Shown: positions 8,027 to 12,377 of the stretch, one piece after another | Layout: the number at the start of each line of letters is the position of its first letter | Numbering within the stretch: position 1 is the first letter of the stretch | Assembly: GCF_000069945.1 (NCBI RefSeq) | Contig: NC_010545.1 | Span: 310,001 to 374,000, forward strand | Direction of reading: 5' to 3' | DNA from: Corynebacterium urealyticum DSM 7109 | GTDB taxonomy: Bacteria; Actinomycetota; Actinomycetes; Mycobacteriales; Mycobacteriaceae | DNA: 64,000 nucleotides | The notes under the pieces: generated by a model | The model's database searches: none | What the model was told of the DNA's origin: nothing | What the model saw: only the letters and a program-made list of their open reading frames with translations | Translations under genes and position numbers: made by a program

Positions 8027-9199
8027 GTGAATATCACTCAGCAGCAGCTCGACCAGTTCCTTCGTCACGCCCGCGAGCACGCGCACGTGGTGGCCCTGCC
8101 GATGCGCACGCGCTTCCGCGGCATCGATACCCGCGAGGCGATGCTCGTTCCCACCCCTGGCGGGTGGGTGGAGTTCGCGCCCTTCCTGGAATACGGTCCC
8201 GCGGAGTCTTCCCGCTGGTTGCGCAGTGGGGTGGTCCATTCGCTTCTTTTGGACGACGACGCCACCGCCCGGCCGCAGGGTGCTAACGCGGATCATGCCG
8301 CGCTGCAGGTCCCGGCGGGGGTGGGGGTGTCGGTGAACGCCACGATGCCCGCGGTGGATGCGCAGGCGAATCCGCAGCAGGTGGGGGAACTGATGGCCCG
8401 TTACCCGGGGTGCACGACTGTGAAGGTGAAGGTCGCTGAGCCAGCCGTTCTGCGGGAACAGGGCTTTGAGGCCTCGATGGCCCAGGATGTGGCGCGCGTG
8501 CGTGCCGTGCGGGCCTGGTTCGCCGAGCAGGGCGTGGACCGGCCCCGGATCCGGGTGGATGCGAATGCAGGCTGGTCGGTGGATCAGGCGCTGGCGGTGA
8601 TTACGCAGTTGGCGGCAGAGGACGTGGCGGGCGAGTGCCTGGACTACGTGGAGCAACCCTGCGCCACGGTGGCCGAACTTGCGGAGCTGCGGCAGCGGCT
8701 GGCCGATGAGGGGATCGCGCCGGGCGGATCCCCGGTGCGGATCGCGGCCGATGAGCTGATCCGCAAGGCATCGGATCCGCTGGCTGTGGTGGAGGCCGGG
8801 GCCTGCGATGTGGCCGTGGTGAAGGTCGCCCCGCTGGGCGGCATCGACCAGGTCGTGAAGGTGGCGCGCCAGGTGGCGGCCCACGGGGTGAGCCTGACGC
8901 TCAGCTCCGCGCTGGATACCGCGGTGGGTATTGGCGCGGGTCTGCAGGCTGCTGCCCTGGTGGCTCAGGTGGGCAACGACGCCGGGGTGTTCGGCCAGGC
9001 TGGGCCGAATGCTGCGGGGTTGGCGACGGGCTCGCTATTCACCGCGGACGTGGGAGCCCGGGAGATTGCCGATGGTGCGATGCTCACCGGCGCGACCCAG
9101 CCGGATCCGGAAGTGTTGGAGCGCTACGCGGTGGACGCGGAGCGTCGGCAGTGGTGGGTTCGCAGGATGGAGGCTGCAGCCGCCGAGCTGGGATCGTGA
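8027..9199 (+). CDS. menC: o-Succinylbenzoate synthase
   Basis: Enolase-superfamily enzyme that dehydrates SHCHC to o-succinylbenzoate. The barrel motifs are visible in order: TTVKVKVAEP (catalytic Lys strand), RIRVDANAGW and DYVEQP (metal ligands Asp, Glu), AADELIRK (third ligand), and VKVAPLGGI (second Lys). I use the GTG at 8027 (reading VNITQQQLDQF, 390 residues); an earlier in-frame GTG at 7997 would add ten residues. It faces menB head to head. It ends just before the first repeat array of the AlbA_2 gene, and no terminator is evident after it. Confidence 0.92.
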   Translation: MNITQQQLDQFLRHAREHAHVVALPMRTRFRGIDTREAMLVPTPGGWVEFAPFLEYGPAESSRWLRSGVVHSLLLDDDATARPQGANADHAALQVPAGVGVSVNATMPAVDAQANPQQVGELMARYPGCTTVKVKVAEPAVLREQGFEASMAQDVARVRAVRAWFAEQGVDRPRIRVDANAGWSVDQALAVITQLAAEDVAGECLDYVEQPCATVAELAELRQRLADEGIAPGGSPVRIAADELIRKASDPLAVVEAGACDVAVVKVAPLGGIDQVVKVARQVAAHGVSLTLSSALDTAVGIGAGLQAAALVAQVGNDAGVFGQAGPNAAGLATGSLFTADVGAREIADGAMLTGATQPDPEVLERYAVDAERRQWWVRRMEAAAAELGS

Positions 9200-9220
9200 C
9201 GCCCGCTAGGGGAGCATCCC

Positions 9221-9338
9221 AAAACAACTAGAAACAACTTTGAAACAACCACCGGAGGCTTCGTGACCTGGGGGAATAATAAGATGAAGGGTCGGGCTGG
9301 CCACAATAGTTGTTCGTAAGTTGTTTCAAAGTTGTTTC
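9221..9338. repeat. Left iteron-like repeat array (copy of a 108-bp direct repeat)
   Basis: Three AACAAC units start at 9223, 9233 and 9244, and three inverted GTTGTT units start at 9309, 9320 and 9331, so spacing is 10-11 bp, one helical turn. The inner arms GAAACAACTTTGAAACAAC (9231-9249) and GTTGTTTCAAAGTTGTTTC (9320-9338) are perfect 19-bp inverted repeats. The 108-bp segment 9231-9338 recurs in direct orientation, and at the same length, at 11190-11297 beyond the gene. A further AACAAC unit (9362-9367) overlaps the likely -35 region of the gene. A binding site array for the encoded protein is the simplest reading. Confidence 0.85.
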
Positions 9339-9358
9339 GCTGGGGTGGGTGGTGCCTC

Positions 9359-9394
9359 TTAAACAACTTCCTGGGGAAATGTATACTTCACATA
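9359..9394 (+). promoter_or_regulatory. Probable promoter of the AlbA_2-type gene (leaderless)
   Basis: A -10 box TATACT lies at 9382-9387, seven bases before the ATG at 9394, so transcription would start at or next to the start codon. The weak -35 TTAAAC (about 9359-9364) overlaps an AACAAC repeat unit, which would let a repeat-binding protein block the promoter. Confidence 0.45.
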
Positions 9395-11160
9395 TGGAAT
9401 CCCCCATGATTGACGATGCGACACCGTGGCTGCCTGAGGATGTTGCAGAGGCTCTAGAAGCTATTTGGAACGGAGATTCGGCTGGCAATGTCGAATCGGA
9501 GACCCTAGAGATCAAAGAGGACCCTGCCCGGGTTCAGCATGCGCCTTCGAAGGCCGATAAGCATCGGGCACAACTTGTAGAAAAGCTCATTGATGAGGCG
9601 GTGTGCCTGGCTAATGGGGAATCCGCTATGGGGCACATCATCGTGGGTATCAGTGACAAGCTGACCGGACCTGAAGCGTTTACCGGAACGGACTTAGATA
9701 CCTTAACCATTGAGAGAAAGATTCTTCATGGTACGCAGCAGCAACTGAGGGTAGAAGCATCTGAACTTGAGTACGGCGGTAGTCGCCTTGTTGTGATCCG
9801 TATCCCAGAAGCGTTGACCATGTATACCCGCACCCAAGGGCAGGCGAAACGGCGGCGGGGTACGAGTTGTGAGCCGCTGCTGGAGGCGGAGCGACAAGCG
9901 CTGGCTCGGGAAAGGGCGAACCCCGATTATTCAAACGGGAGCTCGAGGCTCCAGGTCCAGGACATCGAACTGCCAGTCCTGGAAGAGGCTCGCCGACTGT
10001 TGAGGGGGAAACGGTCCAGGGAAGACGGGTCGGATTATGTGCCGAAAGGTGCCAGTGGCCTCCTTCGCGAACTGGGGCTCGTGGGCCATGATGGTTCGCT
10101 CAAGAGGGCGGCAGAGATCCTCATGCTGCCACCGGACAAGCCCGCCCTGACGGTTCAGTATTTCTGGAGACCCATCGTGGGGGCCGATCCTGAAGTGAGC
10201 GAGATCAGTGAACCGCTGTTGACTGCGCTTCCCCGGCTGCGCCGCCTAATCAGAGAGCGCGCAAGTCAAGAAATTGAAAGAGTGCAGTTTGATGATGGGC
10301 AGGAAACCGCGATCCCACGCTTCCCTGCCCAGGCGATTGACGAGGCCGTCACGAATGCCTTCATACATAGGGACTGGCAAATCAGTCGCCCCGTGGTTGT
10401 TGACCAGACGCCTCGTACTCTGAAGATTTGGTCCCCGGGCCCTCTGCCGCCGGGGGTTGATCGGGATCACTTGCTGACGACTCAATCGGTGCCGCGGAAT
10501 AGTCGCCTTATGGCGGTAATGCGTGGGCTCGGCCTGGCTGAGGAATCGTCGCGCGGTTTTGACCGCATGTGGTCCGCAATGATTGGAACAGGTCGGGAAG
10601 TTCCGGAAGTGCGTGCTGAGGAAACCTTCGTTGAGGTGATTCTTTCAGCAGGTAAGCCCGATGTGGGTTTTATCAAGATGCTTCATGAACTGGAGAAGCT
10701 ACCTGATGGCGAGGCCGTGAGGAGCGTGGGCACTCTCATTGTCTTAAAGCAGCTGTGGAGCGCGCCCCGGATCACGAAGAATCAGGTTGAACGGCTTGCA
10801 CAAATTTCTTCAATGGAAGCCGCCGAACTGATGGAGTCGCTCCAAGACATTGGGGTGGTAGCGCGGCTCCAGGGGGCGGATGAATGGGTTTTGGGAAGGG
10901 CGGTCCAGCAGGGGATAGCTTCTTCGGGTGGTGCCCAGCCCCAGTTTGCTAGTGCTGCGACGATGCCTACAGAAGAGTGGTTGGAAGAGCAGCTGCGAAC
11001 TGGCACGATACGCGCAGCAGAAGCCGCCGAGATTTTGGGTATAGAGCGCTCCGAGGTGACGAAGATCTTGCGGAAACTGCGGGAGCGCGGGGTGGCGCGT
11101 ATTGACCCGACCGGCCCGCAGCGTGGGTCAAACACACGCTGGATTGGGGCGTTGGAGTAA
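9394..11160 (+). CDS. AlbA_2 / HATPase_c_4-type DNA-binding ATPase-like protein, putative regulator
   Basis: About 588 residues resembling the bacterial Schlafen-AlbA_2 plus RecG-related ATPase-like proteins usually annotated as putative transcriptional regulators. The N terminus contains the AlbA_2-like pattern ETLEIKEDP followed by VEKLIDEAVCLANGESAMGH and IIVGISD. The central part has FPAQAIDEAVTNAFIHRDW and LKIWSPGPLPPGV, matching the HATPase_c_4 module (N-box-like EAVTNAFIHRD). The C terminus has one or two winged helix-turn-helix segments, the last being IRAAEAAEILGIERSEV. In-frame ATGs exist at 9379, 9394 and 9406; 9394 fits a leaderless start. The gene stands alone between menC and a pseudogene, looks lower in GC than its neighbours, and is bracketed by matching repeat arrays, which suggests a self-contained acquired unit. 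Its function is not known. Confidence 0.8.
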   Translation: MESPMIDDATPWLPEDVAEALEAIWNGDSAGNVESETLEIKEDPARVQHAPSKADKHRAQLVEKLIDEAVCLANGESAMGHIIVGISDKLTGPEAFTGTDLDTLTIERKILHGTQQQLRVEASELEYGGSRLVVIRIPEALTMYTRTQGQAKRRRGTSCEPLLEAERQALARERANPDYSNGSSRLQVQDIELPVLEEARRLLRGKRSREDGSDYVPKGASGLLRELGLVGHDGSLKRAAEILMLPPDKPALTVQYFWRPIVGADPEVSEISEPLLTALPRLRRLIRERASQEIERVQFDDGQETAIPRFPAQAIDEAVTNAFIHRDWQISRPVVVDQTPRTLKIWSPGPLPPGVDRDHLLTTQSVPRNSRLMAVMRGLGLAEESSRGFDRMWSAMIGTGREVPEVRAEETFVEVILSAGKPDVGFIKMLHELEKLPDGEAVRSVGTLIVLKQLWSAPRITKNQVERLAQISSMEAAELMESLQDIGVVARLQGADEWVLGRAVQQGIASSGGAQPQFASAATMPTEEWLEEQLRTGTIRAAEAAEILGIERSEVTKILRKLRERGVARIDPTGPQRGSNTRWIGALE

Positions 11161-11181
11161 ATGGTTTGGCAACAATCCTGG

Positions 11182-11336
11182 AACAACAAAAAACAACTTT
11201 GAAACAACCGCCGAAAGCTTCGTGACCTGCGGAAACGATGTAGTCCGGGGTTGGGTAGGAAGCAAGGGTTGTTCAAAAGTTGTTTCAAAGTTGTTTCGGT
11301 GCGTCGGAAAACAACTCCGGAACAACTAGTAACAAC
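11182..11336. repeat. Right iteron-like repeat array (second copy of the 108-bp direct repeat)
   Basis: AACAAC units start at 11182, 11192 and 11203, GTTGTT units at 11268, 11279 and 11290, and a third AACAAC set at 11310, 11321 and 11331, again at 10-11 bp spacing. GTTGTTTCAAAGTTGTTTC at 11279-11297 is identical to the left copy, and its partner arm is at 11191-11208. The core GCTTCGTGACCTG is also shared with the left copy. This array lies 3' of the AlbA_2-type gene and 3' of the converging pseudogene, so it is not an obvious promoter for either. Confidence 0.85.
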
Positions 11337-11400
11337 CCGGCAACGCCTCGCAGTAATGGCAACCGCAGAGCCAGGTTGACGTCCTGAAGCCAACGCCGGG

Positions 11401-12272
11401 CTACCGCGATTCTTCGAGGTAACGCACCGCTGCCTGACCAGCCCTCCTGCCGGCGCGGGTCGCACCCACCGTCGAGGCGGTGGAGCCATAGCCGACGAGC
11501 AGCACCCGCGGGCTCTTCGCGACGCGCACCTCGCCGTCCATGAGGATTCCCCCGCCCGGTTCCCGCAGCTTCAGCGGGGCAAGGTGGCGCAGGGAGTGAC
11601 GGAATCCGGTGTTCCAGAAGATGACGTCGGCACCCACCTCGGTGCCCGGCGGGTGGCCCAGATGGTTTCGCTCACTTCCTGGAGCTCCAGGAGGAACTGA
11701 ACGGCCGACAGCCCGCCACCGACGACGAGGGTGCGTAGGCCCGCGAAGTCTTCCTTGCGGGTGTAGTCCTTCGTGTGCAGCTGGCAGCCGCGGAAGGTCT
11801 CGATGCCTGGGATGTGCGGCACGTGCGGGTTATTCCAGGTGCCGGTGGCGCTGAGGAGGATGTCCGTGGTGATCGTGGCGCTCGTGGCGTCCGGGCCGGT
11901 AGCGGTGACGGCGAGCTGGTCACCAGCGGACTCCACGCGGGTGACGTGTGCGGGGCGGACCACACGCAAGCCGAACTTCTCCTCGTAGGCGCCGTAGTAC
12001 TCGGCAACCAACTGGGAGGCCGGGGCGCTGGGGTCGGGGCGGTTCATCGGTAGGCCGGGCAGGTCCGCGATCCCGTGGGCGGTACCCAGGGTGAGGGAAT
12101 CCCAGCGGTGCCGCCAGGCCCCGCCGGGGCCGTCGTTAGCATCCAGCACGAGGAAGTCTTCGCCCGGAACTAGGCCACGGCGCCACAGTTCGTGGGCGGC
12201 AGCGAGCCCGGCCTGGCCTGCGCCGATAATAAGCGCGCGGAAATGGCCCCGATCCAGGGAAGATAGCTCCAT
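11401..12272 (-). pseudogene. Flavin-dependent monooxygenase/oxidoreductase, disrupted by internal deletion
   Basis: The N-terminal part (12272 to about 11640) reads as a flavin monooxygenase-like protein with a dinucleotide motif IIGAGQAGLAAAHELWRRG, the motif GTWNNPHVPHIPG and a second Rossmann motif LVVGGGLSAVQFLLEL. After RRAPRWVP the frame goes off into non-homologous residues and stops. The true C-terminal part continues in another frame as GADVIFWNTGFRHSLRHL to the Arg-rich tail at 11401. Roughly 60-90 residues expected between these two segments are missing, so a deletion, not a single-base error, broke the gene. It converges on the AlbA_2 repeat unit and diverges from menD. Confidence 0.8.
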
Positions 12273-12377
12273 GGTGCCGAGTCTAACGGTCGGTCACGAG
12301 CACACGGGAGGTCGTGGTGGTCGGGGTGCGAGCTGGCCGCCCAACGCCAACGGGCAAGGTGGGTTAGATTTGGGGGC

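Follow-up and report, generated by a model that had tools for sequence, protein, structure and literature searches.

A gene of Corynebacterium urealyticum DSM 7109 encoding a protein with SLFN_AlbA_2 and HATPase_c_4 domains and a C-terminal wHTH lies between two long direct repeats, each of them an array of AACAAC and GTTGTT units spaced by 10 to 11 bp. We consider it probable that gene and repeats together form a single-gene module that carries the operator of its own product at both ends, that the two arrays are bridged by the protein, and that the gene is lost when one copy of the repeat recombines with the other. The analysis started from a 64,000-nt stretch of the genome (the window), and positions below are those of the window, on its forward strand, unless indicated otherwise.

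Arrangement of the C. urealyticum locus

The gene occupies positions 9394..11160 and encodes 588 amino acids. Pfam places SLFN_AlbA_2 at residues 34–161, HATPase_c_4 at residues 342–417 and a C-terminal wHTH (TrmB match) at residues 535–575, with scores above the curated cut-offs (PF13749, 47.1 bits against 26; PF04326, 42.9 against 25.3; PF01978, 26.0 against 25.6), in agreement with the initial annotation of the product as an AlbA_2/HTH ATPase. A transposase or integrase domain was not among the Pfam matches of the protein, which consist of these three other domains only. NCBIfam gave no match up to E 0.001, and PADLOC gave no full-length match; the best of seven partial PADLOC matches up to E 0.1 was to pAgo (residues 273–404, E 6.7e-12). 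Near-identical proteins are found in Corynebacterium sp. HMSC27B11 (98%) and HMSC22B11 (99%). Across 37 proteins, residues E34, K41 and D43 do not vary, and they may be linked to the Schlafen nuclease residues.

The structure of a homologue has been solved (PDB 3lmm) and matches residues 25–506 with an E value of 1.6e-28. It is that of DIP2311 of C. diphtheriae, an AlbA_2 and HATPase_c_4 protein like the present one over this span, whose function is described as unknown (PMC8780604). The same two Pfam domains (AlbA_2, PF04326; HATPase_c_4, PF13749) are shared with TrlG of Photorhabdus. In the available part of its description, TrlG belongs to a temperature-induced three-gene operon that arrests growth, and flanking repeats are not mentioned there (PMC7554251), whereas the gene considered here stands singly between two arrays. 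By analogy, the growth arrest associated with TrlG may serve as a lead on the function of the present protein.

The direct repeats span positions 9216–9342 and 11175–11301 (127 nt, 76% identical without gaps). In the local alignment of 9223..9342 with 11182..11301, 95 of 120 positions match, for a score of 108 compared with at most 31 in 20 shuffles, which bears out the presence of two repeats of the same orientation around one gene. The length of 108 bp first proposed is better replaced by approximately 120 to 127 bp. Each repeat consists of a triplet of AACAAC units (at 9223, 9233 and 9244 in the left, upstream array; at 11182, 11192 and 11203 in the right, downstream array), a spacer, and an inverted triplet of GTTGTT units (at 9309, 9320 and 9331; at 11268, 11279 and 11290), with the 10 to 11-bp spacing that the initial annotation had described. 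The inverted arms are likewise as described, being perfect over 19 bp in the left repeat and 18 bp in the right, with 70 bp in between, and a third AACAAC triplet was recovered on the right side (11310..11336; units at 11310, 11321 and 11331). In both copies a TGACCTG core follows the AACAAC units, at 9264..9270 within the left repeat and at 11223..11229 within the spacer of the right one.

A promoter-like site, TAAACA-16-TATACT, is located at 9360..9387, upstream of the ATG at 9394. Its TAAACA forms a −35-like hexamer (9360–9365), and its TATACT occupies 9382–9387. As had been noticed in the initial annotation, an extra AACAAC unit (9362–9367) overlaps the −35-like hexamer of this promoter, which was recognized by consensus match only. 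The units are nearly private to the locus. A search for the arm throughout the 2.37-Mb genome, allowing up to three mismatches, returned six matches, every one of them inside these two arrays; ten of the 11 phased AACAAC pairs in the genome also fall in the arrays, the remaining one being at genome position 48592, and a reversed control pattern yielded one phased pair.

Layout of the module among homologues

With a threshold of E 1e-5, the gene has a match in 89 of 201 Corynebacterium genomes. We examined 91 loci (30 from the 201-genome search, 40 fetched in addition and 21 from a search of the class), of which 89 could be scored; L191 and L114 were left out of the census because they had too little flank. 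A repeat was accepted when its score was above 40 and exceeded the highest score among 20 shuffles by a factor of more than 1.4. The subfamily, defined by matches that reach the C-terminus with at least 37% identity, comprises 46 scored Corynebacterium loci, and long direct repeats across the gene were found in 33 of these. With L030 set aside, the 32 repeats are 92 to 177 bp long and 72 to 100% identical, and in all 32 the right copy starts 0 to 60 bp downstream, counted from the stop codon's first base. Upstream units are present in 12 of the 13 subfamily loci that lack a direct repeat. At least three AACAAC/GTTGTT units lie upstream in 11 of the 13, with only three in L032, whose start was misplaced, and only four in L204; L202 has 13 variant matches of the AACAATT type, and L196 has none of the four unit types that were counted.

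Repeats were absent (0 of 11 loci) from the neighboring Corynebacterium group with 34 to 37% identity, in which the match ends at about residue 491–512 and there is no wHTH match. In the menC control, none of 28 loci scored above 40 (L041 and L061 were dropped as too short). When upstream and downstream sequences were paired from different loci, three of 200 pairs scored above 90, because related loci share repeat sequence. Counted by hand, the array is present in 35 of the 42 genomes that carry the gene (match at 2e-90 or better) compared with 11 of the 159 others (Fisher p 1e-22). Three of these 11 contain broken modules (G004, G012 and G185) and four contain solo arrays (G064, G140, G151 and G155); the other four (G100, G116, G159 and G199) appear by eye to be chance hits, and the gene was not found in the three of them that were tested. 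Homologues without repeats nearby, together with repeats scattered in unrelated places, had been named in the initial annotation as the result that would speak against a functional link. For the subfamily this result was not obtained, although 13 of the 46 loci do lack the downstream copy, so the downstream repeat is not essential.

A wider family search gave ten new loci, two of which are the same gene. L232, from another genus, has a repeat (175/198) with AACAAC arrays, and in L230 and L231 the array is confined to the upstream side; among the rest, the distant L235 (65/69) and L238 (84/85) have repeats and the others have none. Distant Corynebacterium loci (24–28% identity) have repeats of other sequence in five of 12 cases; in L220, L221 and L222 these begin at the stop codon, and in L227 and L218 they begin 29 to 86 bp behind it. 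The class search contributed 20 scored loci, of which only L106 has a repeat (200/214). By eye, the repeats of L106 and L238 seem to take in sequence of a neighboring gene or a terminator, and thus not every such repeat is an operator. In L238 (genome G499), the sequence that is duplicated around the distant homologue resembles a terminator and a gene end and is unlike an operator.

Empty sites, solo arrays and mobility

In G107 and G145, the closest relatives without the gene among those compared, the interval between menC and the oxidoreductase holds neither the gene nor a repeat. The comparison of this interval proposed in the initial annotation thus found the whole unit to be absent, repeats included. 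The FAD-dependent oxidoreductase sequence beside the module (11393–12290) aligns to 1202 bases in G107 and extends over only 898 in the window. Approximately 300 bases are therefore missing relative to G107, which shortens the listed ORF (11571–12272), possibly a pseudogene.

Nine solo arrays were identified (L120–L125, L129, L132 and L133) with no gene match at E 1e-3 in the stretch fetched, two of which (L125 and L129) are close to contig ends. Both flanks could be matched for the solo arrays of G064 and G083, at a site where G128 holds a full module; in G064 a start-like sequence seems, by eye, to come after the array. G022 has a solo array at a site that is filled in L019 and L022, and its outer junctions correspond to that of the left copy and that of the right copy. 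An array of this kind is what recombination between the two copies would leave, or else it would be an acceptor before insertion. At the yceI–pepN site, one or two units are left in G101 and G130 and none in G036 (by eye). A gene remnant is present in G167. In G196 two upstream arrays enclose a start-like piece, and a further gene fragment adjoins the gene. We also considered whether the repeats of G012, G185 and G004 (L119, L128 and L136) had acquired new cargo. The repeats are kept in these genomes, with approximately 30 to 40 N-terminal residues of the gene and transposase-like ORFs (recognized by eye) lying between or next to them; with the gene so cut down beside such ORFs, we class them as broken modules.

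The second proposal of the initial annotation was that the repeats are the ends of a mobile unit. On this view, the arrays would be the LTR-like ends of a one-gene unit that is excised, inserted or amplified by its own protein, perhaps with host enzymes. Modules do occur at many different chromosomal sites, groups of loci at the same site include filled, solo and empty members, and the doubled upstream arrays and extra gene fragment of G196 are in keeping with such a history. The protein, however, has no recombinase domain, and homologous recombination between the repeats suffices to produce solo arrays. Where a genome has two modules (G008, G158 and G189), they belong to separate clades of the gene tree, so no recent copies are seen. 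Flanking duplications outside the repeats were detected in just two of 30 loci, L010 (28/28) and L030 (145/151), and target-site duplication was accordingly discarded as a general mark. At L030 a rearrangement is likely, given the frameshift seen by eye in the right copy and the differing gene order of relatives. The perfect 28-bp duplication of L010 (genome G011), which includes a stop codon and lies outside both repeats, counts in favor of a mobile element and is the best candidate for a target duplication. An 85-bp match at L019 (68/85) was rejected as a duplication and looks by eye like a palindromic repeat.

We therefore regard an LTR-like element as unlikely; the empty sites, the many locations and the solo repeats agree with mobile-unit ends, but these ends come without a transposase or integrase domain or a general target duplication, and the proposal holds only in part because most of what favors it would be explained by homologous recombination of one repeat with the other. 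Matches to the protein in plasmid records number 22, all below 60% identity; one from Miltoncostaea (27% identity) covers 95% of the query and the rest cover 18 to 40% or less. Four matches in phage records are also all below 60% identity, with a query coverage of 33 to 53%. It is similarly improbable, in our estimation, that the unit is a selfish module whose protein bridges the end arrays, silences its own gene and, together with host recombination, leaves, re-enters and amplifies by means of the same repeats, its operator serving also as the end of the element, with the same layout having arisen around unrelated repeats in distant subfamilies.

Selection on both arrays and their probable role

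Constraint on the arrays was assessed by comparing orthologous repeats of related species in 12 pairs, counted in both directions with gaps uncounted; the pairs are not all independent. In left copies, 22 of 712 unit positions differ compared with 380 of 1918 positions elsewhere in the repeat, and in right copies the corresponding values are 17 of 716 and 373 of 1856. Unit positions thus change approximately six to eight times less than other repeat positions, and this holds for both the upstream and the downstream copy. Six pairs taken singly gave right-copy unit changes of 0/36, 0/30, 0/30, 1/31, 0/25 and 0/31. Both arrays are under selection, and because the units of the right copy change as little as those of the left, the downstream array is no decaying leftover. 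Spacing is 10 to 11 bp in 132 of 143 pairs of neighboring units no more than 40 bp apart. A TGA[ACG]CTG core is present in 46 of the 66 repeat copies (33 loci), including loci in which the units have switched.

This constraint is also expected if the right array acts locally and without bridging, for example as an insulator or a roadblock that stops read-through coming from a convergent neighbor, and at this locus the flanking genes do converge on the module. Bridging and a local role of the right array both fit the present sequence data. A local role does not by itself account for repetition of the whole spacer, and we regard it as an unlikely alternative. Far less credible is a passive origin, in which recombination duplicated the promoter region and left a functionless copy downstream. 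The two copies of a locus are indeed alike (86% identity on average within loci compared with 61% between loci, the outer duplication of L030 having been trimmed for this comparison), the right copy is missing from some members of the subfamily, and the repeats of L106 and L238 seem to extend into neighboring sequence, but the low rate of change in right-copy units argues against a functionless copy. The right copy of the same locus is the best partner of the left one in 28 of 33 loci. In the closely related L037, L194 and L195, the copies have drifted independently (left–left 96, right–right 96–98, left–right 82–85), and at the leuS site the identity within loci (81–93) exceeds that between species (60–76), which points to occasional homogenization or repeated insertion. 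The least plausible alternative is that the repeats act as RNA hairpins: the arms can pair and spacer complementarity is 0.63 against a shuffled mean of 0.55 (reached by none of 2000 shuffles), but identical complementary spacers occur in only six of 41 repeats, the surplus may stem from an extended consensus of the units, the 10 to 11-bp phasing is strict, and an Rfam search of positions 9100–11500 gave no match up to E 0.1.

Variation of the units bears on which part of the protein may read them. One clade of the gene tree has AGATAT or AACAATT units, and L199 and L200 have another kind of unit. In the AACAAC group (29 proteins), 164 alignment columns are at least 80% conserved, six of which never show the conserved residue in the switched clade (seven proteins). 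Of these six, R552, located where the predicted recognition helix begins, is the sole position at which L199 and L200 both carry another residue. This comparison left out L030, L201, L203, L205 and L206, and L202, L196 and L204 were kept apart from the AACAAC group; L204, which had been set apart beforehand, has Q at position 552 despite its four AACAAC/GTTGTT units. In this small sample, and with L204 against it, the joint change of units and R552 is consistent with a wHTH that reads the units. We also considered whether loci with a single array compensate by carrying extra upstream units. Such loci have a mean of 9.4 units (10 loci) compared with 7.0 (23 loci) when L032 is excluded for its misplaced start (p 0.0017, post hoc), a difference that weakens to p 0.0040 without L014, which has two arrays, and to p 0.064 at one locus per site, and the idea was not retained.

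The first proposal of the initial annotation, a cooperative operator array with a second array that would act at a distance, appears to fit these data best: judged by sequence, the arrays have a site over a promoter-like −35 hexamer, strict phasing, near-privacy within the genome, linkage to the gene and equal constraint on both copies. We infer that in such a self-bound module the C-terminal wHTH would read the units and bind cooperatively on one face of the DNA. The upstream array would cover the promoter and, to judge by the unit over the −35-like hexamer, repress the gene. The selected downstream array would provide a second functional binding site, and the protein most likely bridges the two, keeping its gene inside a closed loop until a signal reaches the GHKL-type ATPase domain; what follows on release might be an arrest of growth, as with TrlG. 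Recombination between the two long repeats would remove the gene and leave one solo array, and products matching this expectation are seen.

Several known systems resemble the module in part. Self-repressing regulators have phased operator repeats on one helical face, over the promoter and beside their own gene, as is the case here; the present module differs by an additional array downstream of the gene, which is selected to the same degree and in which the entire spacer recurs. LTR elements carry a promoter inside a long direct repeat at both ends and leave solo LTRs behind. The likeness is by analogy only, and the present unit differs in that its one gene does not encode a polymerase, that neither a reverse transcriptase nor an integrase domain is present, and that target duplication is not general. 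Integron cassettes, again an analogy only, likewise hold a single gene tightly between repeats (attC sites) of approximately 100 bp that are imperfect palindromes, whereas the present repeat contains a promoter-like site and phased units and its sequence is specific to the clade. Self-bound operator arrays are known but, to our knowledge, have not been described as two selected copies that flank a single gene and give rise to LTR-like solo products. Among the titles and abstracts listed from the openly accessible literature, we found no description of flanking repeats for the AlbA_2 and HATPase_c_4 family.

Proteins that combine AlbA_2 and HATPase_c_4 domains are common, and we found little on their function. 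The subfamily described here brings along its probable DNA target, in most cases on either side of the gene, and offers dozens of natural variants, which makes binding, the switching of specificity and bridging accessible to experiment. That the layout is common to many relatives at different sites suggests an unusual self-controlled, and possibly movable, unit. If so, the gene would lie between two copies of its own operator, both under selection, and the solo copies would be the footprints of its loss.
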